Of a stretch of 35,013 bases of DNA, positions 1,602 through 27,052 are shown in pieces (position 1 is the stretch's first letter; the number at the start of each line of letters is the position of its first letter). The translations under genes and the position numbers were made by a program. The notes under the pieces are model-generated. The model was given only the letters and a program-made list of their open reading frames with translations. It was not told where the DNA came from and made no database searches. Origin of the DNA: Gammaproteobacteria bacterium (GTDB taxonomy: Bacteria; Pseudomonadota; Gammaproteobacteria; Steroidobacterales; Steroidobacteraceae); the NCBI GenBank assembly GCA_030040795.1, contig JASHTA010000458.1, positions 1 to 35,013 on the forward strand. The letters run 5' to 3'.

Positions 1602-2544
1602 GCTCGCTCTCCCCGACGATCTGGCCGCCCCGCACGCGCTGGGGCATGCGCCGCACCAGCATCAAAAGCGCATGGATGATCGCGGCCGGGTTGGGCGGAC
1701 AGCCGGGAACGTAGAGGTCCACCGGCAATACCCCTTCGAGCCCGTTGCCACAGGCATATCCGCCACCGTTGGTTCCGCCGGACACCGCGCAGGTGCCGAG
1801 CGCCATGACGAAGCGAGGCTCGGGCATCGCCCGATAGGCCTCCTGAAGCGGGTTCCTCAGGGCGTGGGTCACGGGCCCCGTGACGAGCAGCAGATCGGCG
1901 AAGCGGGGCGAGGGCGTGAAGAAGATGCCGAGACGATGCAGGTTGTAGAAGGGATTGTTGAGCGCCTGCAGCTCCGACTCGCAGCCGTTGCACGAGCCGG
2001 CATCGACGTGGCGGATGTGCAGGCTCCGTCCAAAGATGCGGCGGATCTCGCCTTTCAATTCCTTCTCCGCCGCAGAATCGCCGGCACCGGCACCCGCGTC
2101 GGCACGGGCACCGGCGGCACCCACGTTGGCGCCGACGCCTGCAGCCACACCCGAGGGGCGCGCCCACAGCAGGTCCTCCCGCCGGCGCACGCCGAAGGCC
2201 CAATCGTTCGATGGGCTGAACGCCTCCGTTGGACAGACCTCTACGCACATCTGGCAGACGACGCAGCGGCCATAGTCGACCTTGAGGCGCGCGCCGCCTC
2301 GCGACGCGCCGAGCGAATCCGCGCTGCCGTCGATGGGGTCCCCCTCCTCGATGGCGATCGCACCAGGCAGGCACGCATCCGCGCACTCGCGGCAGCCGCT
2401 CTGGCACTTCGCGGGATCGAACCGCGGCATCCCGAGAACGCCAGACTGGCCGTCGTCACCCTCGGACGGCCATTTCGTGCTGGCCTTGCCCTGCTTCAGC
2501 CCATATCGCGTCCAAAATGGCATGGCTTCTCTCCGCCCCTTCAA
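1594..2544 (-). CDS. Fused ferredoxin (HyfH-like) + hydrogenase small-subunit (HyfI/HycG/NuoB-like) protein
   Basis: Two 4Fe-4S motifs (CQSGCRECADACLPGA; CVVCQMCVEVCPTEAF), then SCNGCESELQALNNP...GTCAVSGG...GCPPNP. Confidence 0.88.
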   Translation of the reverse strand: MKGRREAMPFWTRYGLKQGKASTKWPSEGDDGQSGVLGMPRFDPAKCQSGCRECADACLPGAIAIEEGDPIDGSADSLGASRGGARLKVDYGRCVVCQMCVEVCPTEAFSPSNDWAFGVRRREDLLWARPSGVAAGVGANVGAAGARADAGAGAGDSAAEKELKGEIRRIFGRSLHIRHVDAGSCNGCESELQALNNPFYNLHRLGIFFTPSPRFADLLLVTGPVTHALRNPLQEAYRAMPEPRFVMALGTCAVSGGTNGGGYACGNGLEGVLPVDLYVPGCPPNPAAIIHALLMLVRRMPQRVRGGQIVGESERA

Positions 2545-4235
2545 CGGGCGCAGCCCGCGACCGTGAGGCCGAAGCTGGCCTCGTTGATGGCGTAGTCCAT
2601 CATGTTCGACTGGTGAACGGTGTGGGGGAATACGCGCCAGTTCGAGAAGCTCGGCGACTTGATCTTGACCCGCGCGAGCTTCCCGGCCGAATCGAGATGC
2701 ACGGCGTAGTAGACGGAGCCGCGTGGCGACTCCGCCCAGCCGAGGCCTTCACCCCGGGCGGCAGGCGGGCACTCCGCGCGGATGGCACCGGACGGCAATC
2801 CGCCGAGTGCGGCCTGGATGAGCTCGATGCTGTTCAGGGTTTCGGCGATCCGAACCTGCTGGCGCGCATGCGCATCGCATCCGTCGCTCGTGGCCACACG
2901 CAGCGGCAGCTCGCGATAAACGCCGTAGGGTTGATCGCGCCGCGGATCGCGATCCACTCCGGAGGCGCGCTCGATCGGGCCCGTGGCCCCCAGGTCGAAC
3001 GCGAGCTGCTTGCCGAGCACACCCGTCGTGATCAGCCGGTCGAGATGGGTCGTGGTGGTCTCGAGCATCTCCGCGTAACGCGCAAACTCGCGGTGGATCT
3101 TCGCGAGCCGCACGGCGATTCCGCCGAGACGCGGCTCGCGCCTGAGGCCGCCCGGGCAGACGAGGCTGCGCAGGAAGCGGCTGCCCGTCGCCTCCGCATT
3201 CAACTGCTTGGCGAGCTCCTCGAGATATTTGCCCTCGGCTTCTCCGACCTTGAGCGTCGTGGTGTGACAGAGATGGCCGAAGTAGTGCAGATGGTTGTAG
3301 AGCCGCTCGAGCTCCGCGAGGAGCACGCGCAGCCACTCGGCTCGCGGGGGCACGTCGCACTTCGCGGCCGCCTCGAGCGCTCGAGAGTAAGCGAGCGCGT
3401 GCGCGACGCTCCCGACGGCCGAGACCCGCTCGGCAAGGACGGTGCCGAGCTCGGGTCGTATGCCCTCGAAGCGCTTCTCCATTCCGCGATGCTTGAAGAA
3501 GAGCTGCGGGTCGTAGTGGAGGATCCCCTCGCCGATGTAGAAGAACGTGAACTGCGCCGACTCGAGCACGTCGGCCCGAATGGGACCGAAGGGAAGGAGT
3601 TGCACGTCGCGGTGCGCCGAGCCTGCGACTTCCGGCAAGCTCGAGGGCTCCGGAGCATACGAAAGCGGTGGTGCCGCTCCGGGGCGCAACGGCGGGCGCG
3701 TGGCGCGCGCGCCGGGCAACAGCACGAGCGGCTCGGGCTGCGGCTGATTCTGAAAGGACAGTCCGCACAGATCGGTGATCTCCCGCTCATACCAGGAGAC
3801 GAGCGGGGCGATGGACGCGAGGCTCGGCGGCGGAAGCGTTCCCGGCCGGCAGCGCCAGATCTCCGGCGGATGCCCTGCCGAGGAGTGAACGACATAGCGC
3901 AGCTCGATGGTCTCGGGCGGCGCAGCCTCGGCGCCGCTCCCCTGCACGTGCGGCTCGCCGGCGGTCTCCGGAAACCAGGCGTAGGCGAGCTGTACGCGCG
4001 CTCCCGCCGCAACCGCAGCGCCGCAGCGTTGCTCCAGGTCGCGGAGCGGCACGTCCCGGATCGGTGTGGCGTGGGCTTCCTGCCGCGCCCGCAACGGAGG
4101 CTGCTCCGGGCTCACGGACTGCCTCCGATCGCAAGCTGTGCGGCGATTACGGCGAAATAGTGCGCGAAGGCGCGCGGCCACCACACGCCGAGCACCAGAA
4201 GCGGTACGAGCGCGAGCCACATCGGCAGCACGCAC
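2541..4235 (-). CDS. Hydrogenase-4 large-subunit-like protein (NuoC-NuoD/HyfG-HycE type) lacking the [NiFe] CxxC motifs; true start probably near 4113
   Basis: N-terminal NuoC-like region (EREITDLCGLSFQNQPQPEPLVLLPG), HycE-like core (GILHYDPQLFFKHRGMEKRFEG...ERVSAVGSVAHALAYSRALE...NHLHYFGHLCHTTT). Conserved gene order with neighbouring hyf homologues. Confidence 0.88.
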   Translation of the reverse strand: MRAADVARARTASGARRVVAARLRALFRRNRRTACDRRQSVSPEQPPLRARQEAHATPIRDVPLRDLEQRCGAAVAAGARVQLAYAWFPETAGEPHVQGSGAEAAPPETIELRYVVHSSAGHPPEIWRCRPGTLPPPSLASIAPLVSWYEREITDLCGLSFQNQPQPEPLVLLPGARATRPPLRPGAAPPLSYAPEPSSLPEVAGSAHRDVQLLPFGPIRADVLESAQFTFFYIGEGILHYDPQLFFKHRGMEKRFEGIRPELGTVLAERVSAVGSVAHALAYSRALEAAAKCDVPPRAEWLRVLLAELERLYNHLHYFGHLCHTTTLKVGEAEGKYLEELAKQLNAEATGSRFLRSLVCPGGLRREPRLGGIAVRLAKIHREFARYAEMLETTTTHLDRLITTGVLGKQLAFDLGATGPIERASGVDRDPRRDQPYGVYRELPLRVATSDGCDAHARQQVRIAETLNSIELIQAALGGLPSGAIRAECPPAARGEGLGWAESPRGSVYYAVHLDSAGKLARVKIKSPSFSNWRVFPHTVHQSNMMDYAINEASFGLTVAGCAR

Positions 4236-5596
4236 CAGAAGGCCGTTCCCGCGGCGCGCGGCTGCCTATGGACAGCGGCCGACTCGGGGTGCTCGCCGAA
4301 GTACATCGTGCGAAAGTGATTGAGGAAGCCGATGAAAATCACGATGAGGAGCAGGAGCATCACGAAGACGGCCCACGCATTGGGCCCGGCGAGCCCCGCG
4401 CGCAGGATCGTGAACTCGCTCAAGAACAGCCCGAAGGGCGGCGCACCGGTGATCGCGACGGCGCCCGCCATCCACAGCAGGCCTGCGACCGGCATGGCGG
4501 TGAGGACGTAGTGGATGCGGCCGATCCGCTTGCTGTGAAAGGCGTGCATGGCGTCGCCTGCGCCGAAGAACATGAGCGACTTGTTGAGCGAGTGGTTGAG
4601 CATGTGATAGAGCGCGCCCGCGACCCCGAGCGGCCCGCCGAAGCCGAAGCCGAGCGTCATGACGCCCATGTGCTCGACGCTCGAGTACGCCATGAGGCGC
4701 TTGATCTCGGTCTGCCGAGTGATGAAGAGGGCGGCGATCAGAAGCGAGAGAGCGCCGATCACGACGACGACGGTGCGCGGCAGCGTGCCGAGATGCGCAC
4801 TGTCGGCGACCTGAATGAACCGGGCGATGCCGATCATCGCGGTGTTGAGGAGCGCGCCGGAGAGCATGGCGGACACGGGCGCGGGTCCCTCGCTGTGCGC
4901 ATCCGGGAGCCAGGTGTGCATCGGCGCCAAGCCCACCTTCGTTCCGAAGCCGATGAAGACCAGCAGGAAAGCGGCGAGCGCGATGGTCGGATTGAGCCGC
5001 GGCGCGACCGAGCGCAGCGCGGACCATGTGAGATCGTACGTCGCGCCGAGCGTGAGGCTTCCCCCCCAATAAAAGAAGATGATCCCGAGGAGCGCGAGGC
5101 TGATGCCCGCGGAGACGACGATGATGTACTTCCAGGCGGCCTCGACGCTCTCGCGCGTGCGCTCGAAGCCGACGAGGAATGTGCTGACGAGCGTCGTGAG
5201 CTCGATCGCGATCCAGTACACACCGACGTTGTTCATGAGGGGACCCAAGAGCGTCGTCAGCGCAAACCCGGCGAAGAGCGCGTAGAAGCGATGCAGGCGT
5301 TTCTCCTCGTCGAGCGCGCGCATGTAGCCGATGGCGTAGATCGAGGCGAGGAGATAGACGGTGGCGACGGAGAGCAGCACCCAGGCGCCGAGCGGATCGA
5401 CGATGAGGTAGCCGCGCCAGAGCGTGAACGGGCCCCCGAGCGCTCGTGGCAGGAGCGCGATCACGGCGCCGAAGGAGACGATGGCCGCGATCAGGTTGAG
5501 ATATTCGGAGGCTCGCGGCCGGCGCAAGGCGAGGCAGCCTGCGACCGCGGCGAGCGGCGCGAGCAGAATGACGGCGACGAGCGCTCCGATGCTCAT
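4112..5596 (-). CDS. hyfF: Hydrogenase-4 component F-like / NuoL-N family antiporter-like subunit
   Basis: Start MSIGALVAVILLAPLAAVAGCL at 5596; GFGTKVGLAPMHTWLPDAHSEGPAPVSAMLSGALLNTAMIG. Confidence 0.9.
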   Translation of the reverse strand: MSIGALVAVILLAPLAAVAGCLALRRPRASEYLNLIAAIVSFGAVIALLPRALGGPFTLWRGYLIVDPLGAWVLLSVATVYLLASIYAIGYMRALDEEKRLHRFYALFAGFALTTLLGPLMNNVGVYWIAIELTTLVSTFLVGFERTRESVEAAWKYIIVVSAGISLALLGIIFFYWGGSLTLGATYDLTWSALRSVAPRLNPTIALAAFLLVFIGFGTKVGLAPMHTWLPDAHSEGPAPVSAMLSGALLNTAMIGIARFIQVADSAHLGTLPRTVVVVIGALSLLIAALFITRQTEIKRLMAYSSVEHMGVMTLGFGFGGPLGVAGALYHMLNHSLNKSLMFFGAGDAMHAFHSKRIGRIHYVLTAMPVAGLLWMAGAVAITGAPPFGLFLSEFTILRAGLAGPNAWAVFVMLLLLIVIFIGFLNHFRTMYFGEHPESAAVHRQPRAAGTAFWCVLPMWLALVPLLVLGVWWPRAFAHYFAVIAAQLAIGGSP

Positions 5597-6291
5597 CCCG
5601 TGAGCCTCCGCAGCTCGAGCGTGCTGGAAGTTCCGGCGTGGACGACGAGGTAGCGCACGAGCACTCCGAAGCAAGCGACCACGACGAGCAGGTCGAAGAG
5701 GATCACGAGCTCGATGAGGAGCGGCATCCCGGGGACGAGAATCTGCGATCCGAGGAAGATGCCGTTCTCGAGCACGAGAATGCCGAGAACCTGGGAGATC
5801 ACCTCGCTGCGCACCGTGAGCATGAGAAAGCCGATGAGCTTCATCGACAGCATCACCGTGAGGGCGAGGACGGCAACCGTACCGGTGAGGCCGAGCGCCT
5901 GCCCGAGATGCGTCGCGACGACGAACGCGAACACGACGAGCATCGCGCCGACGACGAGGCTCGAGCTGGGAGCGAGGCGCTCGTGCAGCTCCCGATCGAC
6001 CTTCAGGCGGCGGACGATCCGCAGAAGCAGATAGGGCAGCACGAGCCCCCTGAAGAGCGCCGTGAGGACCGCGATGCCGTAGAGCTCGGGGTAGCCGCCA
6101 TAGAAGGCGACAGCCGCCGAAAGCAGTGCGATGAGCCACGACTGGACGGCGAACGCGATCAGGTACTCATACAGCCAGCGCGAGCCCAGCATCACGAACG
6201 CGAGCAGCAGGCTCGTGATCGCGAGGAGGCTGAAGAGCGAGCCGGCGAGGGGGGGTAACGCAGCGGCGAAGATGCCGTGAGCAGCCGGCAT
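5593..6291 (-). CDS. hyfE: Hydrogenase-4 component E-like membrane protein
   Basis: Start MPAAHGIFAAALPPLAGSLFSLL at 6291; multi-TM HyfE-like protein, stop/start overlap with the next gene. Confidence 0.82.
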   Translation of the reverse strand: MPAAHGIFAAALPPLAGSLFSLLAITSLLLAFVMLGSRWLYEYLIAFAVQSWLIALLSAAVAFYGGYPELYGIAVLTALFRGLVLPYLLLRIVRRLKVDRELHERLAPSSSLVVGAMLVVFAFVVATHLGQALGLTGTVAVLALTVMLSMKLIGFLMLTVRSEVISQVLGILVLENGIFLGSQILVPGMPLLIELVILFDLLVVVACFGVLVRYLVVHAGTSSTLELRRLTG

Positions 6292-6293
6292 AC

Positions 6294-7238
6294 CTACCTC
6301 AATTGGTTGGCGACGATCGCGAGGATCGCGAGGAGAAAGGATGCCGCAAGCGGCTCCTGGTAGCGGTAGTACCGCAGGCGCGATTGCGCGGTCTCGACGA
6401 ACACGACCGCCGCGGCAACCACCAGGAACTTCACGAACAGCGCCACGGCCGCCGCGAAGGCGCCCACCGCGAGCCCCTGGATCGACAGGCCCCAGGGCAG
6501 GAGCAGCACGTTGCAGAAGATCGTGTAGAGGATGAATTGCTTCATCGCCGAGGCCCACTTGAGCAATGCGAGGAGCGGTCCCGAGTACTCGAGAATCCGC
6601 GCCTCCTCGATCATGTACACCTCGATGTGCGTGCTCGAGTGGATGGGCAGCCGGTCCGTCTCGACGAGGAGGAGGATGAAGAAGGCTGCGACCAGGAAGA
6701 GGTGGGCCGGACCCCAGTACACGACGGGCTGCTGCACCAGCAGGTGATTCACGACGAAGGGCAGCATCGACTTGGCGAGGAGCGTGATCCCGACGAAGAC
6801 GAGGATGAGCGTGGGTTCGGCGAGGATGCCGAGCATCACGGTGCGCGATGAGCCGATCCCGCCGTAGGCGCTCCCGGAATCGAGTCCCGCGATCGTGATC
6901 ATGAAGGACCCGAGCGTGAGGATCAGGCCGCCGCCCAGGATATCGCCCATGTCCGAGAGCGGCAGCGGGAAATTCGTGAGGACGGGGATCAGGATCGGCA
7001 CCGTCAGCATGCAGGTGAAAGCGACGACGGGCGCGAACCAGTAGATGAAGCTCGCCGTTTCGGGCACGACGAGCTGTTTGTGGAAGAGCTTCCACAAGTC
7101 CCGGTAGGGCTGGAAGATGCCGGGCCCCTGCGCGCGCTGGACGCGCTCCTCCCATTGGACGATCACACCTTGAAGCAGGGGAGCCAGAGCGAGGACGGTG
7201 AGAACTTGCGCGATCTGCAGCAGGACGTCGCGGATCAC
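6294..7238 (-). CDS. hyfC: Hydrogenase-4 component C-like / NuoH-family subunit (GTG start at 7238 favoured; ATG at 7325 also possible)
   Basis: VIRDVLLQIAQVLTVLALAPLLQGVIVQWEERVQRAQGPGIFQPYRDLWKLFHKQ..., typical NuoH/HycD motif. Confidence 0.88.
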   Translation of the reverse strand: MIRDVLLQIAQVLTVLALAPLLQGVIVQWEERVQRAQGPGIFQPYRDLWKLFHKQLVVPETASFIYWFAPVVAFTCMLTVPILIPVLTNFPLPLSDMGDILGGGLILTLGSFMITIAGLDSGSAYGGIGSSRTVMLGILAEPTLILVFVGITLLAKSMLPFVVNHLLVQQPVVYWGPAHLFLVAAFFILLLVETDRLPIHSSTHIEVYMIEEARILEYSGPLLALLKWASAMKQFILYTIFCNVLLLPWGLSIQGLAVGAFAAAVALFVKFLVVAAAVVFVETAQSRLRYYRYQEPLAASFLLAILAIVANQLR

Positions 7239-7386
7239 AGCCGGTCTGCCTTTCGCTCGCCCAGGTTGGGGCGACCTCTGCGGCAATGTCGAGCGTTCAG
7301 GGAACGGAGCCGGGCCTGCCTCCAAGGCTGGATTTCACAGGCACGCAACAGCCGCTTCGGGCTTGAATCAAGCTCGGGTCTATGCA

Positions 7387-7421
7387 CTACCAATCCTCTC
7401 GTCACGAGACGGACTTGGTAG
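7387..7421 (-). promoter_or_regulatory. Candidate expression-platform hairpin of riboswitch R1, overlapping the aptamer 3' end
   Basis: Minus strand: CTACCAA-g-TCC-g-TCTCG-TGA-CGAGA-GGA-TTGGTAG. The 5' arm overlaps the CCTACC end of the aptamer. Confidence 0.6.
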
Positions 7422-7467
7422 GCATCATCAGCCGATTCCCGGCGGTTCAAGGAGGAATGCCATCTCC
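7417..7467 (-). ncRNA. Fluoride riboswitch (crcB motif) R1, leader of the hyf/Ehr operon
   Basis: Minus strand GGAGATGGCATTCCTCCTTGAACCGCCGGGAATCGGCTGATGATGCCTACC: P1 GGAG/CTCC, pseudoknot GGCAT/ATGCC, P2 GCCG/CGGC, conserved AACCGC and GCTGATGA. Confidence 0.9.
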
Positions 7468-7477
7468 GTCAGCCCGG

Positions 7478-7560: not shown

Positions 7561-7571
7561 GAAGTTGACGC

Positions 7572-7624
7572 GGGAGATGGCCTCCTCCCCCAAAAGAACC
7601 GCCGCTTCGGCTGATGACGCCTGA
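7572..7624 (+). ncRNA. Fluoride riboswitch (crcB motif) R2, leader of the dynamin/ATPase/MutS-like operon
   Basis: GGGAGATGGCCTCCTCCCCCAAAAGAACCGCCGCTTCGGCTGATGACGCCTG: P1 GGGAG/CTCCC with 8-nt loop ATGGCCTC, P2 GCCG/CGGC, AACCGC, GCTGATGACGCCTG; pseudoknot GGCCTC/GACGCC with one mismatch. Confidence 0.88.
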
Positions 7625-7629
7625 ACCGC

Positions 7630-7642
7630 CCTCGCGGCGAGG
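7630..7642 (+). promoter_or_regulatory. Candidate SD-sequestering hairpin downstream of R2
   Basis: CCTCG-CGG-CGAGG, with the 3' arm containing the GAGG ribosome-binding site about 10 nt before ATG 7652. Confidence 0.5.
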
Positions 7643-7651
7643 ATCGGCGCC

Positions 7652-9736
7652 ATGTTCAACGAGAGCCAGCAACGCTATCTGGTGAGCCGGCTACGCAGCA
7701 TCGACGAGATGCTGAGCGAGGCGGTCGAGCGCCTTGCGCCCTCCGATAGCGGCCAGGTCTTTCGCGCCGTCGACGCCGATGCGACGCCCGCTCAGCGCAA
7801 GGTCCTCGCCGATCATCTCGCTCAGGTGCGCTTCGCGCTGCGCCGCTTCATGCTTGCCCGTCAGCTGCGCGACGAGCGCCGACCGACCGGAGGGTTGTGG
7901 TCCCTCCAGACCACGCTCGCTTTTGCGCAGGTTGCCGCGGAGGAGCTCAGACCCAAGTACTGGAGCGGCTACGGCGAGGTGGATCCCGAGTCCGCGGCGG
8001 CCGCCGAGCGCCTCGCGGCAGAGCTCGTGACACTGCTGCATCGGATGCAGGATTCCATCGCCCGGGGCGCGATGGGCGGACTTGCCGAGCGGATCGAGCG
8101 GCTGTCGAGCACACGCGAGGAGATTGCCCTCCTCAAGGAGCTGGAGCGCATCATCTCCCATCATGGGCTCCTCGAGCTGCGCGCGCCGCTCGAGGCGCTG
8201 GTGGAGCGAGCCGCATCGCCGCGCTTCGAGATTGCGGTCTTCGGCCGGGTGAGTGCCGGAAAGTCCTCTCTTCTCAACTGGTGGCTGGGCACCGCGCTGC
8301 TGCCCACCGGCATCACGCCGGTTACGGCGGTGCCGACCCGCATCGTGCACGGGAATGCGGCGCGCGTGCGGATCGAGCGGACCGGCGCCGCGCCGGTCGA
8401 AGTTCCCGTCGAGGATCTCGCGGCCTACATCAGCGAGCAAGGCAATCCGGCGAACGTCAAGCGAGTCCTGCGTGTTCTCATCGAAGCGCCCGCTTTGCGT
8501 CTCGAGGGCGGTATCCGCCTGGTTGACACACCGGGACTCGGTTCCCTGGCGACGGTCGGCGCGGCGCAGACGCTCGAATACCTGCCGCAGTGCGACCTCG
8601 GCGTCCTGCTCATCGAGGCCGGAGCACCTGTGGCGCCGGACGATCTCGACGTGGCCCGGGCACTTCTCGATGGAGGGAGCGACCTCGTCATCGCCTTGAG
8701 CAAGGCCGACCGGTTGAGCAGCGAAGAGCTCGAAGAGGCGCTGGCGTATGTCAAAGGGCAGTTCGAAGCTCGGCTCTCGATACCCTGCACGGTGCGGCCC
8801 GTCAGCACGGTCTCGGGGCACGAGGCACTGGCGGAGGCATGGTTTGCGGAGACCTTCGCGCCCCGCCTTGCGAGCCACACCGAGCGGGCGGCCGAGGCCC
8901 TCCGGCGCAAGATCGCCGTGCTGCGCGAATCGGTCGTCGCCGTGCTCGATGCGCGGCTGGGGCCCCCACATGCGGGATCGTCTGCGGAAGCCTCGAGCTC
9001 GGCCAAGGCTCCCCCGGTGGCCGACAGCTCGATGCGGCTCCACGACCGGATTGCACAAGTGCGCTCCGACTTCGAGCGGGCGAGATCGGAGCTGCTCGAT
9101 TTCAAGATTCGGCTGCCTCGCTTCAATGTCCGCGTGGTCGAAAGTGCGGCACGCGAGCTCGCCGGCTGCTGGATGGAAGGCGATCGGACCGCGGAACGAA
9201 CCCGGGATCGCGTGGCGGCGGCCATCGCCGGCTGTGCCGACGAGGTGGGACATGCGGTCATGAGCCGGCTCGATGAGCTGTGGGACAGCGTGATGCGAAT
9301 CGTCGAGGACAGCGCTCCCCACTTTGAGCGTGGAGCGATGGACGCCGAGAGCGCAAGGCGCGAGGCGGAGCGGGAGATCGCGCGGCCCCGCGGCCGTCCG
9401 GTATTCGATACGGCCGCGGTGTTGAGAAACCCGCTCCGGTGGGCTTCGCCCCAGTGGCTCCCCCGCTGGTCGCGCGTGCTGCTGGCGATCGCGCGGGCGC
9501 GCTTGAGACGGACGGTGCTTCCCGCCCTCACGACTCAGCTCGGTGTGTATGGCGATGCCCTTCACCACTGGGCGGTGGACTGCCTGGATCAACTGGGGCG
9601 CCGGTTCGATGCCGCGGTCGCGGCGCGCGAGAGCGCGGAGCGGTTCAGCGCGGAGCGCCCACTCACGGCGGAGGCGGCACGGGCCGCCCGGCGCGATCTC
9701 GAGCGGCTACAGCAGTGGCCGGCGGACGCGGCGTGA
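7652..9736 (+). CDS. Dynamin-like large GTPase (DLP 1)
   Basis: G1 GRVSAGKSS, G3 DTPGLGS, G4-like SKAD, DLP motif YISEQGNPANVKRV. Confidence 0.88.
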   Translation: MFNESQQRYLVSRLRSIDEMLSEAVERLAPSDSGQVFRAVDADATPAQRKVLADHLAQVRFALRRFMLARQLRDERRPTGGLWSLQTTLAFAQVAAEELRPKYWSGYGEVDPESAAAAERLAAELVTLLHRMQDSIARGAMGGLAERIERLSSTREEIALLKELERIISHHGLLELRAPLEALVERAASPRFEIAVFGRVSAGKSSLLNWWLGTALLPTGITPVTAVPTRIVHGNAARVRIERTGAAPVEVPVEDLAAYISEQGNPANVKRVLRVLIEAPALRLEGGIRLVDTPGLGSLATVGAAQTLEYLPQCDLGVLLIEAGAPVAPDDLDVARALLDGGSDLVIALSKADRLSSEELEEALAYVKGQFEARLSIPCTVRPVSTVSGHEALAEAWFAETFAPRLASHTERAAEALRRKIAVLRESVVAVLDARLGPPHAGSSAEASSSAKAPPVADSSMRLHDRIAQVRSDFERARSELLDFKIRLPRFNVRVVESAARELAGCWMEGDRTAERTRDRVAAAIAGCADEVGHAVMSRLDELWDSVMRIVEDSAPHFERGAMDAESARREAEREIARPRGRPVFDTAAVLRNPLRWASPQWLPRWSRVLLAIARARLRRTVLPALTTQLGVYGDALHHWAVDCLDQLGRRFDAAVAARESAERFSAERPLTAEAARAARRDLERLQQWPADAA

Positions 9737-10491
9737 GGCGTGGAGAGCCCGGAATGGCCGAAATGCGCTGGCCCCCCGGCTTCGTGTCGGAGTTGGCGCG
9801 GCGCCTGCGGCATGGGGAGCATCTGGCGCTTTGGGGTCCGCGCGGCAGCGGCAAATCCGCCGTCCTCGCGGAGCTTCAGGCGCGGCTGATCCGCATGCAG
9901 GTGCCCTGCGGTCTCTCACCCTCCACGACTTCGCTCGACGACATCACACGCGCGCTGGAGAGAGCCTATCCGGGTGTGGATACGGTGGAAATCGGACGGC
10001 GCACCGCCCGTGCACGGCTGTGGTGGGTTGCCGATCAGCACCCCGGGGTGCTGCTCCTCGATCACTTGTCGGATGTGAGCAATGCCATGGTCGCCTTCCT
10101 GCGCCGGTTGCACGGTGGCGTGATCGGCGCGCTCTCCGCGCTCGATGTCGACGACGAGCGCGAGCGGCGGGAGGTGAAGCCTTGGCGTTACGGCGCGATG
10201 TCCGTGCGCATGCCACTGACCTCCCGCTCCCGCTTGCGAAGGCTGCTGCGGGCGCGCCGTGCGCGTCTCGGCCTGCCGCCGCTCGATGAGAATCTGGAGC
10301 ATCGATTCCTGCACGCGGCACGGGGCCGACCCGGCTGGATCGTCCGATGCACCGAGCTCGAGTGCGATCGGCGCTACTGGTGCGAGCACGGGTTGCTCGT
10401 CACCGTGCTCTGCACGGACGCGGAGGTCGCGGTGCGCTTTGGCGCGCTCGATCTGCTTCGCCCCGCAGCGGACGCGGAGCCGCGCGTGTGA
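9733..10491 (+). CDS. Small P-loop ATPase/NTPase (GTG start at 9733 overlapping the preceding stop; ATG 9754 alternative)
   Basis: Walker A GPRGSGKS, Walker B-like HPGVLLLDHL; GTGA overlap with the upstream stop. Confidence 0.75.
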   Translation: MRRGEPGMAEMRWPPGFVSELARRLRHGEHLALWGPRGSGKSAVLAELQARLIRMQVPCGLSPSTTSLDDITRALERAYPGVDTVEIGRRTARARLWWVADQHPGVLLLDHLSDVSNAMVAFLRRLHGGVIGALSALDVDDERERREVKPWRYGAMSVRMPLTSRSRLRRLLRARRARLGLPPLDENLEHRFLHAARGRPGWIVRCTELECDRRYWCEHGLLVTVLCTDAEVAVRFGALDLLRPAADAEPRV

Positions 10492-12053
10492 CGGACGACC
10501 GGCCGTCCTTCAGCAGCATCCTTTTTGATCGTCCCTCCTGCGGCGCGGACGAGCGGCGGGGCGAGCCGGAGTGCTTCGGAGATCTGCATCTGGATCAGAT
10601 CGTGGCGGCGGTGACGGCGGGGCGCGGCGAATACGAGCTGCAATCTCTCTTCCATGCCCCTCTGCAGAGCATCGCGGCCATTCACTATCGCCACGAGGTT
10701 TTCCGCGATCTGGAGGATCGCGTGCTGCGTGCGCGGGTCGGCGCCTTCGGCGAGGCCATGCGGAGCGTGCGGGAGCGCCTCGCTCAGTCGCAGAAGGCAC
10801 ATTACCGCCTGCAGCAGCAGCGCTGGTTTCTCGATGCCGCGAGCCTCTATTGCGAGGCTGTCGTGCGGCTGCACGCGGATCTCGGCGCGACCCAGGTGCA
10901 ATCGCGCGGGCTGTGCGCTTTGCGCGGCTTTCTGGGTCCATTCGTGCGCTCCGAGGGATTCGGATCGATGCGCGATGAGGCACGGCGGATCGCCGAGGCT
11001 CTCGCGGCGATCCGCTACGAGCTGTACATCGACGGCGCTCGCATCGAGGTGCGGCGCGATCAGGGCGAGCCCGACTACGGCGCCGAGGTGTCGAAGGTTT
11101 TCGCCAAGTTCGAGCGGCCGGGAGCCAAGGAGTACCGATTCCGTTTCCACGAGTACCGGGACATGAATCACGTGGAAGCGGAGATCCTCGAGCGCGTCGC
11201 CCTGCTCTTCCAGAGCACCTTCGCCGCGCTCGCGGCGTTCTGCGATCGCTATCGCGAGGCGGCGTTCGATCCCACGATTCTGCGGTTCGACCGGGAGGTG
11301 CAATTCTATCTCGCGTATCTCGAGCACAGGGCTCACATCGAGGCCGCCGGCCTTGCCTTCTGCTATCCGGAAGTCAGTGACCGCTCGAAGGCCGAAGGGG
11401 GCGAGGCGTTCTTCGACCTTGCGCTCGCGGGCCGCCTCGCAGCCGAGCGCAAGGCAGTCGTGACCAACGACTTCCATCTCGAAGGCGCGGAGCGAGTCCT
11501 CGTCGTCTCCGGCGCCAATCAGGGAGGCAAAACCACGTTCGCCCGCGCATTCGGCCAGCTTCACTATCTTGCCGCGCTCGGATGCCCGGTGCCGGCGCGC
11601 AAGGCGCGGCTCCTGCTCTTCGATGGGCTTTATACGCACTTCGAGCGGGAGGAGCGCGTCGAGAGCCTGCGCGGCAAGCTCGAGGATGAGCTCCTTCGGA
11701 TGAGACGCATCCTCGATGCGGCCACCGCGCGCAGCGTCCTCATCATGAACGAGAGTTTCGGCTCCACGACGCTCGAGGATGCGCTCTACCTCGGGCAGCG
11801 GGTTCTGCGCCGAGTGATCGACCGGGACCTCATCTGTGTCTGCGTGACTTTCGTCGAGGAGCTCGCCTCGCTCGATCGGGCGACGGTCAGCATGGTGAGC
11901 CAGGTCGATCCGGCAGACCCCACGGTGAGGACCTTCCGCGTGGTGAGGCAGCCTGCGGACGGGCTCGCCCACGCCCTCGCGATCGCCCGCAAGCATCATC
12001 TCCGCTACGAGGAGATCCGAGCGCGCATCGTGGCCCGGAGCGCTTCCGCATGA
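10488..12053 (+). CDS. MutS-like ATPase A (no mismatch-recognition domain apparent)
   Basis: GTG start at 10488 overlapping upstream stop; Walker A SGANQGGKTTFARAFGQ, Walker B-like SVLIMNESFGSTT aligned to the MutS ATPase core. Confidence 0.85.
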   Translation: MTDDRPSFSSILFDRPSCGADERRGEPECFGDLHLDQIVAAVTAGRGEYELQSLFHAPLQSIAAIHYRHEVFRDLEDRVLRARVGAFGEAMRSVRERLAQSQKAHYRLQQQRWFLDAASLYCEAVVRLHADLGATQVQSRGLCALRGFLGPFVRSEGFGSMRDEARRIAEALAAIRYELYIDGARIEVRRDQGEPDYGAEVSKVFAKFERPGAKEYRFRFHEYRDMNHVEAEILERVALLFQSTFAALAAFCDRYREAAFDPTILRFDREVQFYLAYLEHRAHIEAAGLAFCYPEVSDRSKAEGGEAFFDLALAGRLAAERKAVVTNDFHLEGAERVLVVSGANQGGKTTFARAFGQLHYLAALGCPVPARKARLLLFDGLYTHFEREERVESLRGKLEDELLRMRRILDAATARSVLIMNESFGSTTLEDALYLGQRVLRRVIDRDLICVCVTFVEELASLDRATVSMVSQVDPADPTVRTFRVVRQPADGLAHALAIARKHHLRYEEIRARIVARSASA

Positions 12054-13630
12054 AGGCGCATCTGATGTTTCAGGACCGCGACTTCGACGCGAAAGCCGCG
12101 TTGCCGCGATCGGCCCAGGCGTTGACGCAGGACCTCGGGCTCGATGCGCTGTTCGATGCAATGGCGCAGGGCGACGAGTTCCTGCAGGACGTGGCGCGGC
12201 ACGCCGTGCTGACGAGCCTCGCGGATCCCGGGCAGATCGCCTATCGCCAGCGCGTTCTGGAGGACTCCCTCGCGCATCCCGACATCGCGAGGGACATGTA
12301 TGCGCTTGCGGTGGACGCGATCGAGCGTGAGAGACGGATCTGGGGCTGGACGCTCGACCGGCATCCGGAGAGCGTGCTCCGCCGTTCGCTCGATGTGCTG
12401 CGTCTTTTCGTCGAGATCCTGAGGAAGCTGAAGCGGATCGCCGAGGAGCGGGCGGAAGAGGTCCGCTCGGAAGGCTTCACGGGCCTATTTGCGATGCTGC
12501 GGACCGAGCTCGGCGAGGAGTATCTCGGGGAGGTCGAGCATCACCTCTCGCGCCTCGAGCTGCGCCGAGGCATGGTCCTCGGCGCGAAGCTCGGGGAGGG
12601 GAACAAGGCCGCCGGCTACGACCTGCGCAAATCCTCCGAGAGCCGAGGCGGCCTGCTGCAGCGGATTCAAACCTGGGTGGGACAGATCGGAAGCGATGAG
12701 CGATCGAGTCATGCCTTCGAGATCGACCCGCGTGATGAGGCCGGTCATCAGGCGCTCGGCGACATTCGCAGCCGCGGACTCGCCGTTGTCGCCATGAGAG
12801 TGGGGGACGCGGCCGATCACACGCTCGGCTTCTTCAGGATGCTGCGCGCCGAGCTGGCGTTCTATGTGGGTTGCCTCAACCTCCGGGACCGCCTGGCGGG
12901 AAAGGGCGAAGGGGTGTCGATCCCGCACACGGCACCGGCGGCGGACGAAGCACTTGCCGGCCGAGGCCTGTACGACATCGCGTTGGCGCTCAGCATGGAC
13001 GGCCGGGTCGTGGCCAACGACTTCAGCGCCGACGGCAAGCGCCTGATCATGATCACAGGCGCGAACCGCGGTGGCAAAACGACGTTCCACCGCAGCCTCG
13101 GGCAAGCCCAGCTGATGATGCAATGTGGCCTCTTCGTTCCGGCGGCGTTTTTCCGTGCAAGCCTCTGCGCCGGCGTGTTCACGCATTACAAGCGCGAGGA
13201 GGACGCCGGCATGAGGACGGGCAAGCTCGAGGAGGAGCTCAATCGGATGAGCGCGGTCGTGGACGAGCTGCGGCCGGGCAGCCTCATGCTGTTCAATGAA
13301 TCATTCGCCTCGACGAACGAGCGCGAGGGATCGGAGATCGCGCGCCAGATCGTGCAGGCGCTCCTGGACTCGGACGTGAGGGTCGCCTATGTCACGCACC
13401 TCTACGATCTCGCGCACGGGCTCCATCGTGCGCGGATGGGGACGGCGCTCTTTCTTCGCGCGGAGCGCCTGGCGGACGGTCGCCGGACGTTTCGCGTATT
13501 GGAAGGCGAGCCGCTGCCGACGAGCTACGGCCCGGACCTCTACAGCAGAATCTTCAGCGCGCCGCAGTCCGATGCGCCGAGTAGCGGCGGCCGACCCATG
13601 CAAAGAGAGGTACGGCCGCAAGCTGGGTGA
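12050..13630 (+). CDS. MutS-like ATPase B
   Basis: ATGA overlap with upstream gene; Walker A TGANRGGKTTFHRSLGQ, Walker B-like SLMLFNESFASTN. Confidence 0.85.
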   Translation: MKAHLMFQDRDFDAKAALPRSAQALTQDLGLDALFDAMAQGDEFLQDVARHAVLTSLADPGQIAYRQRVLEDSLAHPDIARDMYALAVDAIERERRIWGWTLDRHPESVLRRSLDVLRLFVEILRKLKRIAEERAEEVRSEGFTGLFAMLRTELGEEYLGEVEHHLSRLELRRGMVLGAKLGEGNKAAGYDLRKSSESRGGLLQRIQTWVGQIGSDERSSHAFEIDPRDEAGHQALGDIRSRGLAVVAMRVGDAADHTLGFFRMLRAELAFYVGCLNLRDRLAGKGEGVSIPHTAPAADEALAGRGLYDIALALSMDGRVVANDFSADGKRLIMITGANRGGKTTFHRSLGQAQLMMQCGLFVPAAFFRASLCAGVFTHYKREEDAGMRTGKLEEELNRMSAVVDELRPGSLMLFNESFASTNEREGSEIARQIVQALLDSDVRVAYVTHLYDLAHGLHRARMGTALFLRAERLADGRRTFRVLEGEPLPTSYGPDLYSRIFSAPQSDAPSSGGRPMQREVRPQAG

Positions 13631-15157: not shown

Positions 15158-15216
15158 GACTCGTTCCTCGCCCCGCGTTCCGAAGTCCGCTCGTCTCGCC
15201 TCAGCCCCTCAGCCCT

Positions 15217-15597
15217 TCAGCCCTTCAGCCACTCCACGGTACCGATCCCGGCGACCGTCATGAGCACGGACCCGCCGAGATGGATCGCGATGGCCGCAAG
15301 CGCCCACGGCATTTCCGCGCCCCGCAGGAGCGTCACGAGTTCCGCGGAGAAGGTGGAGAACGTCGTGAGACCCCCGCAAAACCCCGTGATGACGAACAGG
15401 CGCCACTCGGGAGCGAGCGCCGAGAAGCTCGAGAAGAACGCGATGGCCGCGCCGATGATGTAGCCGCCGATGAGGTTGGCCGCGATGGTTCCGGGCGGAA
15501 TGGTCGGGAAGAGACTGTTGAGCCTTGTGCCGAGCCACCAGCGCAGCAGGGCACCGAGACTCGCTCCGAGACTGATAGCAACGATCGACTTCCACAT
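15217..15597 (-). CDS. crcB: Fluoride channel/exporter CrcB (Fluc)
   Basis: [19 protein letters not shown]...[16 protein letters not shown]...[15 protein letters not shown]. Confidence 0.95.
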
Positions 15598-15685
15598 TCA
15601 CGTGCCCCTCCGCCGCCGGAGCGAGAGCCGTCCGAGATCGGGCCGATGAGTCTACGACATCTCACAGCGCACATCTCGCGGCCCG

Positions 15686-15714: not shown

Positions 15715-15723
15715 TGCCGCCAC

Positions 15724-15770
15724 GGGGATGGAGTCCCCCGCGAACCGCTCTCGATGCTAATGACTCCTGC
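15724..15770 (+). ncRNA. Fluoride riboswitch-like element (crcB motif) R3, plus-oriented, no evident cognate gene
   Basis: GGGGATGGAGTCCCCCGCGAACCGCTCTCGATGCTAATGACTCCTGC: P1 GGGG/CCCC with 8-nt loop ATGGAGTC, pseudoknot GGAGTC/GACTCC, AACCGC, GCTAATGA; P2 is weak. Confidence 0.75.
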
Positions 15771-15876
15771 CCAGTGTGTCGGATTGCACGCGCGGCAGGA
15801 GCATGCATGCCGGCCGCGTAGCGGGTATGCCATGCGCCAAGAGCACGCCGAGTCGTTCGCGCTTGAAAAGCCCTGC

Positions 15877-17658
15877 CTATCCCATTCCCTGCACGCCGGC
15901 GACTCGTACGAGACGCGCATCGAGCGCGGCGATTCTGCGCCGCAGCTCGTCGATGGCCGACGACCGATCGGCGGCTCGCTCCGCACTGCGCCGGCGGATC
16001 GCGATGCCGTTGGCGATCGCGGTATCAATTCCGCCGACCGTCGTGTCGATCTGCCGCAGCATCTGTCGTTCCGCCTCGTGCACGCTCTTCTTCAGCCGCT
16101 CCTCGATATCGTGGCGAATCCGTCCCGCCTGTGTCTCGACGAGCTCGGTTGCCGTCGCCTTCATGCGCCTGACGATGAGGGGACCGGCCAGCATCCGCGG
16201 CAGCGCGAGGACGGCGGCGGAGGAGAGGAGTTTCAGGCTCGTCGGCTCGTACCAGAATTTGTAGTAGAAGTGAGACTCCGTCGTCCAGCGGGAATCGGTT
16301 CGGATGCCTTCGAACTGCACCGCGAACAGCTCGCTCGAATGACGCATCAGCTCATCGACGCTCTCCTGCAGGCTCGCCCAGAACCGGGAGCACAATGTCT
16401 CGAAGGCGCGCGAGAGCTCGACATCCTCGCGAACGAGCCAGCTCTCATAGGCGGAGCGGATCTCTTGGATGACCCGGTCTTCGAGACCGAGCTGCAGCTG
16501 CCGGGCCGGTTGCTTTTTCAGGTCGGAGAACCACCGGTCGACGCACTGGCCGATGTGGGCCTGCTGCTCGCGCATGAACGAGTCGAGGCCCGGCTCGATA
16601 TCCTCCTTGAGGAGCCTCCGCGCATCCGCTTCGAGCAATACCTGCGTGTCGGCTCGGACGCGCTCGGCCTTCGCCTTTTCTTCGCGAAACGCCGCGACGT
16701 TCGCCTCGAATCGCTCGAGCGGCTCGGTGAGCGCCTTCGATTCGACGTCGAGCGCGAAGCGCGCCTGCGCGAGCAGCCGCTTGAGACTGCGGACGAGCGA
16801 GCTCAGCCACGCGTCCGTCTTCTCGCTCGCCATGAAGCGGCGCAGGGTCGACTCGAGCTCGCGAAAGCCGCTGCGCGCGAGCGCCTCGGAATCTCCCGCC
16901 CGCTTCCCATCGAGCGCGAGCCGGGCGGAAACGGCAAAGATCGGTACCTCGGCGTCGAGCGCTTTGCGCACCGCCGCGCTCGAGAACGCCAGCGCCTCGC
17001 GAAGCTCCTCCGGACGGAGGTAGTCCGTCTTGTTGAGCACGCAAAAGACCTTGCCGGCGTAGGCGCGGATGTCCTTGAGGAAGTCGAGCTCGGCGCGGCT
17101 CACCGGTTGGTCGACGGAGGCCACGAACAGCACCGCATCGGCCTGCGGCAGGTACTTGCGAGTCTCGTCGGTGTTGTGCTCGTAGACGGAGCCGATGCCC
17201 GGCGTGTCGACGAGTCTCACGCCGTTCGCGAGCCAGGGCGAGGGATGATCGATGACGACGCGCTCGACGCCCTTCGCGTTGGCGGGATTGCCCCGCTCCG
17301 TCACGTACTCGCCGAGCGCCGCCGGCTCGATCGTGAGCCGTTGTCCGCCTCGCATCTCCATGTGAACCCGCACGTGAGGACCTGCGCGGATGGCCGTGAC
17401 GACCGAGGTGAGGGGTACAACGCCCGCGGGCAGCAAGGGCTCTCCGAGCAGGGCATTGATGATGCTGCTCTTGCCGCGCTTGAATTCGCCCGCGACGACG
17501 AGATTGAACACCTCGTCACCGAGCTTCTCCTCGAGCCAGCGACACGTCTCCGCGTCGACGCCGGGCAGCGCGGCCGCCTCGCGGAGACAACTCTCGAGCT
17601 CGAGGCGCCGCGAGTCGTCCGCGGCGTTTGCTCCCGGCAGGGCCATTGGACTGCTCAT
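15877..17658 (-). CDS. Dynamin-like GTPase (DLP 2); start MSSPMALPGAN at 17658 favoured
   Basis: G1 GEFKRGKSS, G3 DTPGIGS, G4 NKTD, YVTERGNPANAKGVERV; SD GGAAGGAG at 17667-17674. Confidence 0.9.
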   Translation of the reverse strand: MSSPMALPGANAADDSRRLELESCLREAAALPGVDAETCRWLEEKLGDEVFNLVVAGEFKRGKSSIINALLGEPLLPAGVVPLTSVVTAIRAGPHVRVHMEMRGGQRLTIEPAALGEYVTERGNPANAKGVERVVIDHPSPWLANGVRLVDTPGIGSVYEHNTDETRKYLPQADAVLFVASVDQPVSRAELDFLKDIRAYAGKVFCVLNKTDYLRPEELREALAFSSAAVRKALDAEVPIFAVSARLALDGKRAGDSEALARSGFRELESTLRRFMASEKTDAWLSSLVRSLKRLLAQARFALDVESKALTEPLERFEANVAAFREEKAKAERVRADTQVLLEADARRLLKEDIEPGLDSFMREQQAHIGQCVDRWFSDLKKQPARQLQLGLEDRVIQEIRSAYESWLVREDVELSRAFETLCSRFWASLQESVDELMRHSSELFAVQFEGIRTDSRWTTESHFYYKFWYEPTSLKLLSSAAVLALPRMLAGPLIVRRMKATATELVETQAGRIRHDIEERLKKSVHEAERQMLRQIDTTVGGIDTAIANGIAIRRRSAERAADRSSAIDELRRRIAALDARLVRVAGVQGMG

Positions 17659-17695
17659 GACGACGACTCCTTCCATCATGCGCTCGAGCGCATGC

Positions 17696-17819
17696 GGCAG
17701 GAGTCATCAGCGCCGGCCGCCCCAAGAAGGGGCGTCCGGTGCGTTCCGATGCTCGCGGCCCGCTCAGTCCCGGTTCCGGAAGCTCGAGCGAGTGGAGGAC
17801 CGCGGGGGACTCCATCCCC
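17696..17819 (-). ncRNA. Fluoride riboswitch-like element (crcB motif) R4 with an inserted stem, leader of DLP 2
   Basis: Minus strand GGGGATGGAGTCCCCC ... GGAACGCACCGGACGCCCCTTCTTGGGGCGGCCGGCGCTGATGACTCCTGCC: P1 and pseudoknot as in R3, long P2 (GC.CCGG.CGCCCC/GGGGCG.CCGG.GC), GCTGATGA; about 57 nt inserted between P1 and the AAC-GC segment. Confidence 0.72.
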
Positions 17820-17836
17820 AAGCGTGGTAGGACGAG

Positions 17837-17936: not shown

Positions 17937-19559
17937 GTGAGCGTCATGGACCTGCGCGAATACGAAACCGCGAAGTTCGAAATGGCGGAGATCGTTCGGG
18001 CAATCGTCGGCTCCGCGCCGCAAGGGGCCGCGGACATTTCGGATGCCGCACGCGATCTCTTCGGACGGCTCGCGGAGGACCGCTTCAATCTGGTTGTGGC
18101 GGGGCGGTTCAGCCGAGGCAAGACGACGCTCATGAACGCAATTCTCGGCACGGACCGCCTTCCAACCGGAGTGCTGCCGCTCACGTCGGTCATCACGAGC
18201 GTCGCGTATGGGAGCCGCGAGCGTGTGCAGATCGACCCCGAAGGCGCAGCGATTGGGTTCGAGATCGCCATGGAAGCGCTGCCGGACTACATCACCGAGT
18301 GCGGCAATCCCGGTAACGTGCGCCGAATCCGGGCGGCGCGCATCGAGCTGCCGGCCGAGATCCTGAGGCGAGGATTCTACTTCATCGACACGCCCGGCCT
18401 CGGCTCCGCCATGGCTGAGAACAGTCGCACCACTGAAGCGTTTCTGCCTCAAGCGGACGCCGCGATACTCGTCTCCGGCTACGACGGACCGCTCGCCGGC
18501 GAGGAGCTCCAAGTGGCGCGAGCGATCGGCGCGGCGGACCGGCCGCTCTTCGTCGTGCTCAACAAGTGCGATCTGATCGACGCGCGATCGAGGTTCGAGG
18601 TGGAGCGCTACGTTCGCGCGAGGCTGGAGGATGTTCTGCCGCGGTCCCCGATGCGGCTTTTTCCGGTTTCGGCCCTGACCGGCTTCATGGCGAGGATGAA
18701 AGGCGATCGAGCGGGATACGCCGGAAGCGGCGTCGCACACCTCGAGGAGGCGCTGACGCGCTTTTTGCTCGAGGAGAAGAGCCGCGTGGTGCTCGGCGGC
18801 CTGATGCGTCGCGTCGGGGAACTGCTGGAGCGGGTCGAATCGGCGAGCCTGCAGCCGGGGCTGGTCAGGCGTCTTGCAGCGCTGTCCGAGCGTCTGGCGC
18901 CGCGGCGCGGTGCTGCCTCGTCCGGCGGTCCGGCAAAGACGAGGATGGAGGACTGCTCGATCTGTCTTCGGGTTCGCGAGGCGGTATCGGACTTCTTGCG
19001 CCGGTATCAGCTCGATCTCGTCACGCAGGGCGGCGAACGCGATCGGTTGGCCGCGGCAGGGGGTCTATGCGGGAGACACCTCTGGCTCTACGCCTCGATT
19101 GCCGCCGAGCGGGACGTTTGCCTCGCTCTCGCGCCGCTCGTCGAGAGAATGGGCAAGGTGCTGCAGGAAACGCCCTCTACGATGGCGGACGCGAAGCTCG
19201 ATTCGACGATCGCCGTATGCAGGCTCTGCGAAAGGCAGCGGGAGAGCGAGGCACAGGCGGTCACCGCTTTCATCGGAAGGCTCGAAGCGCTGCGCACCGG
19301 CGCGCCCGGAGACCTCCCGTCCGTTTGTCTGCCGCACTTGCGAGCGGTTGCCCGCCACGCGACGGACGGCCGGCTGCTGCGGAGGCTCGTCGAGCGCCAG
19401 ACGGACGCGGCTCACCGTCTCGCCGAGGACATGCGCCGATACACGCTGAAGCACGACGGCTTGCGCCGTGGACTTGCGACGGAAGAGGAGACACGGGCCG
19501 CGCGGAATGCGATTGCCTTTCTCGCGGCGGACCGCTCGTTGGCGACGGATCGGGGGTAA
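17937..19559 (+). CDS. Dynamin-like GTPase with C-terminal Cys-rich (DUF6062-like) domain (DLP 3); GTG 17937 or ATG 17946 start
   Basis: G1 GRFSRGKTT, G3 DTPGLGS, G4 NKCD, YITECGNPGNVRRI; C-terminal CSIC...GGLCGRHLW...CRLC...SVCLPHL. Confidence 0.88.
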   Translation: MSVMDLREYETAKFEMAEIVRAIVGSAPQGAADISDAARDLFGRLAEDRFNLVVAGRFSRGKTTLMNAILGTDRLPTGVLPLTSVITSVAYGSRERVQIDPEGAAIGFEIAMEALPDYITECGNPGNVRRIRAARIELPAEILRRGFYFIDTPGLGSAMAENSRTTEAFLPQADAAILVSGYDGPLAGEELQVARAIGAADRPLFVVLNKCDLIDARSRFEVERYVRARLEDVLPRSPMRLFPVSALTGFMARMKGDRAGYAGSGVAHLEEALTRFLLEEKSRVVLGGLMRRVGELLERVESASLQPGLVRRLAALSERLAPRRGAASSGGPAKTRMEDCSICLRVREAVSDFLRRYQLDLVTQGGERDRLAAAGGLCGRHLWLYASIAAERDVCLALAPLVERMGKVLQETPSTMADAKLDSTIAVCRLCERQRESEAQAVTAFIGRLEALRTGAPGDLPSVCLPHLRAVARHATDGRLLRRLVERQTDAAHRLAEDMRRYTLKHDGLRRGLATEEETRAARNAIAFLAADRSLATDRG

Positions 19560-27003: not shown

Positions 27004-27052
27004 AAGACCTGCCGCGCCAATCGTGGCAGGCGCGGTACCCGTTCATAGATTT

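Follow-up and report, generated by a model that had tools for sequence, protein, structure and literature searches.

The MutS4 subfamily, known since 2007, is made up of adjacent, overlapping A and B genes which spread horizontally (Lin et al. 2007, as far as summarized in PMC5742357). A link between the crcB motif and mutS dates from 2010, the excerpted text of the original report (Weinberg et al. 2010, PMC2864571) placing the motif ahead of mutS, ion transport and formate hydrogen lyase genes. Fluoride islands are known since 2017; in E. cloacae FRM, deletion shows that a defined gene set confers fluoride resistance (PMC5533749). The DNA analyzed here, called the window, is a stretch of 35,013 nucleotides from a Gammaproteobacteria bacterium of the family Steroidobacteraceae, and corresponds to one entire contig (JASHTA010000458.1) of a metagenome-assembled genome (GCA_030040795.1; 3.9 Mb, 565 contigs, 77% complete). 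Gene content and relatives likewise point to a gammaproteobacterium. The window carries a MutS4 pair, preceded by genes for a dynamin-like GTPase and a P-loop ATPase, in an operon located downstream of a fluoride riboswitch. The locus is probably a fluoride-stress operon residing within a horizontally moving fluoride-resistance island.

The riboswitch heading the operon (R2, 7564-7630, + strand) is a true match to RF01734 (39.8 bits, gathering threshold 34), in agreement with the riboswitch-led operon proposed in an earlier, sequence-only reading of the window, and ends 22 nt before the first ATG. Four + strand open reading frames (ORFs) follow, chained by three 4-nt stop/start overlaps; those proposed earlier (9733/9736, 10488/10491, 12050/12053) are found both in the sequence and in the ORF lists. 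The first gene (7652-9736, stop TGA at 9734-9736) encodes the 694-aa dynamin-like protein (DLP) DLP1 (Dynamin_N, PF00350, E 7e-19), the second (9733-10491, stop TGA at 10489-10491) a 252-aa AAA_22-like P-loop ATPase (PF13401, E 6e-07, barely above the cut-off). The third and the fourth, assigned by PF00488, family alignment and structural models, encode MutS4A (MutS-A; 521 aa, 10488-12053, stop at 12051-12053) and MutS4B (MutS-B; 526 aa, 12050-13630). The Dynamin_N, AAA_22 and two MutS_V domains of the four products all score above their cut-offs. The P-loop gene starts at GTG 9733, in a GTGA overlap with the DLP1 stop; MutS4A at GTG 10488, in a GTGA overlap within the motif GTGTGA; MutS4B at ATG 12050, in an ATGA overlap (12050-12053). 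A longer, mechanically called MutS-A ORF (ATG 10347) is unlikely to be the gene, because the N-termini of the family (M.F.SILF) match the start at 10488.

A minimum free energy fold pairs the 3' core of the R2 aptamer (7614-7621) with residues 7646-7653, forming a predicted OFF helix that takes in the first two nucleotides of the DLP1 start codon, and is compatible with translational control. Because the R2 leader folds no better than shuffled sequences (z-score -0.08), the helix has the standing of a prediction. We strongly infer that fluoride raises the expression of the MutS4 pair, the start codon being released, according to this prediction, when the aptamer folds.

The association with fluoride extends to other MutS4 loci, scanned with a covariance model derived from 23 Rfam-level matches. 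Among 76 testable loci, 36 have a riboswitch in the 500 nt preceding MutS4A, and another 15 have one at a greater upstream distance on the same strand. At least one fluoride riboswitch is found in 60 of the 70 loci spanning at least 12 kb; fourteen 20-kb control stretches, all from four other genomes of the class, contain neither riboswitches nor matches to the reference genes. Ten whole genomes yielded 49 riboswitch matches, of which about 30 belong to MutS4 loci; these loci account for approximately 0.22 Mb, or ~0.5% of the sequence. In the same 70 loci, neighbors include enolase (29 loci), hydrogenase-like complex (20), DUF190 (18) and CrcB (16) genes, cation antiporters (12) and pyrophosphatase (11). 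In plasmids of Enterobacteriaceae, the MutS4 pair adjoins the gene set behind the fluoride resistance of E. cloacae FRM.

By sequence criteria, the last two genes of the operon belong to the MutS4A/MutS4B subfamily, and form the conserved core of the operon. About 90 loci, spread over many phyla, contain the pair. Forty-six plasmid records cover at least 80% of MutS-B in tblastn searches, their hosts including Rubrobacter, Rhodococcus, Alicyclobacillus, Burkholderia, Mycobacterium and Enterobacteriaceae; an alignment-based scan of GTDB genomes detected at least 539 relatives. The genomic loci studied are the 80 best matches to the query rather than a random draw, and come from many phyla, archaea included. 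Close relatives are rare near the window: an order-level search hit 1 of 196 genomes, the window's own, and no full-length orthologue was found in a sample of the class beyond the same genome. It was the plasmids, a single phylum-level genome and the broad genome scan that brought orthologues to light. The sparse presence in the order fits horizontal transfer as well as misbinning, a contig of metagenomic origin being one that could be misassigned. The pair in a M. branderi plasmid (L047), which served as mycobacterial stand-in for the published M. yongonense OEM_51400/51410, matches the window proteins at 46-47%, and has a riboswitch 32 nt upstream.

MutS4A precedes and adjoins MutS4B in every locus holding both genes. 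The two overlap by 4 nt in 72 of 84 measurable loci, as they do in the window; the loci being independent, the overlap is more than chance. Translational coupling, suggested by the sequence-only reading for the whole operon, is likely for the MutS pair. MutS4A and MutS4B proteins form separate clades (SH-aLRT support 100 each), which join as sisters (95) outside MutS1, MutS2 and KamC, the sister relation being less sure because long branches meet in the tree. The divergence of the two partners is correlated (Mantel r 0.78).

The active sites differ from those of other MutS proteins in a consistent manner. The Walker B Asp is replaced by Asn in 78/78 MutS4A and 88/89 MutS4B proteins (166/167 in total), the Glu after it being conserved; in most members, GKL stands in place of the MutS signature STF; the switch His is present in all MutS4B, and lost in 77 of 78 MutS4A proteins. 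In the window, MutS4A features Walker A GANQGGKTT, Walker B NE, signature GK and Phe in place of the switch His, MutS4B features GANRGGKTT, NE, GK and the switch His. The Walker B Asp is retained in the MutS1, MutS2, KamC and other MutS-like proteins compared, except the window genome's own MutS. The latter, a canonical MutS (L001, G000:C399), reads MGE at Walker B in place of the usual MDE, the result of either an uncommon substitution or a fault in the assembly. The change found in MutS4 has been engineered in E. coli MutS (D693N, crystal structure 3k0s); no earlier report of the MutS4 active-site signature was found in the literature. Loss of the Walker B Asp in both partners and retention of the switch His in MutS4B only point strongly to an asymmetric MutS4A-MutS4B heterodimer, which would be obligate and have composite ATP sites. 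The heterodimer proposed in the sequence-only reading is probable, on the grounds of constant adjacency, sister clades, correlated divergence and fixed motif differences.

AlphaFold models of MutS4A and MutS4B (pLDDT 87.7 and 83.5, respectively) both correspond to the lever/clamp/ATPase core of MutS; the SMC-like ATPase suggested earlier finds no support. Mismatch-recognition domains are missing, the best structural alignments covering the core only (E. coli MutS, for example, from about residue 260), and both proteins terminate shortly past the ATPase domain, with no C-terminal SMR domain. The charge of the clamp, taken as a sign of DNA binding, does not separate the families. A PHROGs search returned only MutS-like families of unknown function.

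This domain layout, which is that of MutS2 minus the SMR end, raises the rather unlikely alternative that MutS4AB acts as a MutS2-like ribosome rescue factor, splitting ribosomes stalled by fluoride-trapped translation GTPases. MutS2 is the best sequence match in PDB, and close fold matches to MutS2 include the collided-disome complex 7qv3; yet MutS1-type folds score just as well, and MutS4 branches outside the MutS2 clade. Still less probable is a reactivase, which would strip fluoride-inhibited metal enzymes such as enolase and pyrophosphatase as the MutS-like KamC does. A KamC model figures among the NCBIfam matches, and enolase and pyrophosphatase genes are neighbors in 29 and 11 of the 70 loci, respectively; the KamC scores (40.7 and 61.3 bits) are however far under the cut-off of 300, and true KamC proteins cluster with MutS2 and retain DE at Walker B.

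Dynamin-like genes are the second recurrent component. DLP1 has intact G motifs (G1 GRVSAGKSS, G3 DTPG, G4 SKAD) and a Dynamin_N domain scoring 68.9 bits against a cut-off of 27; its closest solved relatives are 5owv and IniA (6j72). Two more DLPs, DLPw2 (600 aa, 15877-17679, - strand; PF00350, E 1e-27) and DLPw3 (540 aa, 17937-19559, + strand; PF00350, E 3e-18), are encoded in the window, which contains all three DLPs of its genome. Of the 70 loci that reach 12 kb, 29 (41%) contain dynamin-like genes, and upstream of 14 of 46 dynamin matches a same-strand riboswitch lies no farther than about 0.8 kb away. Ten genomes encode 13 strong Dynamin_N proteins; 12 of them map to the MutS4 locus or its vicinity, or follow a riboswitch elsewhere, some of the leading riboswitches scoring under the Rfam cut-off. 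The placement relative to the pair varies: DLP genes lie before it in the window, after it in L094, L113 and L114, and are divergent in L057 and L106 and convergent in Burkholderia. In the Thermoanaerobacter, Anaerolinea, Pelotomaculum and Acidobacteriaceae genomes (L140-L143), dynamin genes distant from the pair are led by fluoride riboswitches, some of them weak. In a Lichenicola plasmid (L051, 4455-7521), CrcB and dynamin-like genes are divergent, a fluoride riboswitch lying toward CrcB, and the annotation of the 12.5-kb stretch lists no MutS4 gene; a dynamin-fluoride link is therefore possible without MutS4 nearby. As judged from gene content, DLPs are a common but position-variable member of fluoride islands, and most plausibly represent a distinct membrane arm. 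A literature search retrieved no paper joining "fluoride riboswitch" and "dynamin", and no earlier report of the dynamin link.

All three DLPs match the LeoA/LeoBC (Eleos) models of PADLOC, weakly to moderately, as would an anti-phage system with Eleos-like dynamins. We regard this explanation as most improbable: the matches could stem from features that dynamins share in general, the genes are under fluoride riboswitches and amid fluoride genes, and MutS4 has no PADLOC match.

The P-loop gene behaves differently. It is found in 1 of the 70 loci, and a search of 35 MutS4 genomes gave homologues in 5, each bearing the label Gammaproteobacteria or Proteobacteria; the gene adjoins MutS-A, NuoH, DUF190 or enolase in four of the five. 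The overlap with the DLP gene was observed in the window only, and the gap to MutS-A is 18 nt in locus L052. The plasmid collection has no match to the gene, and PADLOC returned one marginal match. In Burkholderia, homology to the P-loop protein was rejected for a gene adjoining dynamin. By its distribution, the P-loop gene is a lineage-specific accessory of the island.

Co-occurrence of the four families, on which the earlier proposal of a single membrane-linked machine hinged, holds for the MutS pair, is frequent for DLPs and largely fails for the P-loop gene. The three overlaps in the window and the presence of DLP genes in 41% of the islands speak for such a machine; given the rarity of the P-loop gene, the varying position and orientation of DLP genes, and the lack of DLP genes within the stretch seen in most islands of at least 12 kb, a four-protein complex is very unlikely.

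Fluoride traps Mg-dependent phosphoryl-transfer enzymes, P-loop NTPases included, as nucleoside diphosphate (NDP)-MgF or NDP-AlF complexes. NDP-metal-fluoride complexes have been surveyed (PMC9599529). In the mechanism we propose, fluoride would fold the riboswitch aptamer, freeing the start codon and raising expression of the operon, at a time when Mg-dependent phosphoryl-transfer enzymes are poisoned through NDP-metal-fluoride. MutS4AB, in which the Mg-ligating Walker B Asp is Asn and the signature Gly-Lys, would be an ATP-switched clamp still cycling under fluoride, and would close around a fluoride-stalled nucleic acid, ribosome or enzyme complex and clear it. The DLP would separately guard the membrane against hydrogen fluoride entry and ion stress, the P-loop protein being a lineage-specific accessory. 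That MutS4AB is an ATP clamp, which works under fluoride and clears stalled complexes, is a tentative proposal. DNA, the ribosome and an enzyme are all candidate clients, and the rival explanations overlap the clearing step with which the proposed mechanism ends. The boldest form appears doubtful. In it, MutS4AB, owing to its lost Mg-binding Asp and an acquired trans Lys, would keep cycling while Mg-fluoride traps other P-loop NTPases, and would free stalled complexes; fluoride stress would moreover be the dedicated task of an entire class of bacterial dynamins.

Several points weigh against a fluoride-stress function and the proposed mechanism. No upstream same-strand riboswitch was detected, at the threshold used, in 25 of the 76 testable loci. 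The E. cloacae FRM study tested other genes, a six-gene operon alone, and makes no mention of MutS (PMC5533749). The literature search gave no expression, binding or knockout results for MutS4 under fluoride, and the connection between the Asn substitution and fluoride is our own deduction. Finally, a MutS4 operon raised homologous recombination in M. smegmatis (Kim et al. 2017, PMC5742357). The last result would favor a DNA repair or recombination factor, induced as fluoride stress damages DNA, a view traceable to Weinberg et al. (2010) and Kim et al. (2017), and the core fold of MutS4 is near that of DNA-clamping MutS; DNA damage is proposed in the excerpted text of the crcB-motif paper (PMC2864571). 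We consider a DNA role improbable. Mismatch-recognition domains are lacking and the models align to the core only, no other DNA repair gene was found among the annotated neighbors examined, and MutS4 genomes retain their own MutS1 and MutS2. Moreover, the recombination result stems from a M. yongonense island in which fluoride was not considered, and which, carrying enolase and NADH-dehydrogenase/hydrogenase genes, looks by content like a fluoride island (PMC5742357).

Other parts of the window complete the putative island. Riboswitch R1 (7412-7476, - strand; RF01734, 58.5 bits) is divergent from R2 and heads genes for a hydrogenase-4/NuoH-like membrane complex (687-7256, - strand), identified by tblastn to annotated plasmid genes and by NuoH models, the NuoH match spanning 6297-7232. 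A CrcB/Fluc-like fluoride channel is encoded at 15209-15601 (- strand; tblastn, 53% to a plasmid CrcB across 15247-15597). A third fluoride riboswitch (15715-15776, + strand; RF01734, 46.4 bits) points into the antisense of DLPw2, about 2 kb downstream of it being free of clear + strand genes. Right upstream of DLPw2, a weak match to the fluoride riboswitch model (17691-17828, - strand; 14.9 bits, E 0.11) is possibly a decayed fluoride switch. Genes for a DyP-type peroxidase and a family 1 encapsulin shell lie in this order at 19698-21555 (+ strand), inside the fluoride island; the encapsulin gene was not found in other MutS4 loci. An NhaA-like antiporter gene (25717-27040, - strand) is headed by an nhaA-I RNA motif (49 bits), and the island therefore holds a second class of RNA switches. 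Four further fluoride riboswitches reside in the window's genome, on G000:C97 and G000:C197 (L134, L135, L144 and L145): one heads a second NuoH/Hyf-like complex, three are crowded into 2 kb of C197, where the reference genes gave no match.

A "mismatch repair" family of Enterobacteriaceae plasmids and mycobacteria appears to belong to fluoride resistance. A role of MutS4 in this process would correct annotations and reframe the published claim that MutS4 drives recombination. Sixteen years after mutS was first listed behind a fluoride RNA, the question why bacteria induce MutS-like ATPases and dynamins as fluoride rises becomes testable. A natural, family-wide Asp-to-Asn change at the Mg site, in genes under an RNA sensing a Mg-bound anion, offers a concrete starting point for biochemistry.

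Compared with known systems, the window pair matches the MutS4 subfamily (PMC5742357) in A-B order, stop/start overlap and horizontal spread, and the published M. yongonense island has the enolase and NADH-dehydrogenase/hydrogenase genes of fluoride islands; but MutS4 is presented there as a DNA mismatch repair/recombination gene, fluoride being unmentioned, whereas the window pair is riboswitch-led and accompanied by DLP and P-loop genes. The crcB-motif regulon (PMC2864571) shares the position of mutS behind the motif, the subfamily, paired architecture, altered active site and dynamins not being identified in the excerpted text. The genes ppaC, uspA, eno, gpmA, crcB and a cation ATPase gene of E. 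cloacae FRM island GI3 (PMC5533749) are those adjoining the MutS4 pair on Enterobacteriaceae plasmids. MutS4 differs from canonical MutS1 in the lack of mismatch and connector domains (521-526 aa) and in Asn-Glu, not Asp-Glu, at Walker B. Like MutS4, MutS2 has the lever/clamp and ATPase core and no mismatch domain; identity was rejected, since MutS2 has an SMR tail and Walker B DE and forms a separate clade. KamC, a MutS-like reactivase ATPase of about 500 aa, equally devoid of a mismatch domain, was rejected on its low model scores, DE motif and grouping with MutS2. Bacterial dynamin-like proteins such as 5owv and IniA have the GTPase domain and motifs of the window DLP; no fluoride tie appears for them in the literature searched, in contrast with the DLPs described here, which occur within fluoride islands and behind fluoride riboswitches.

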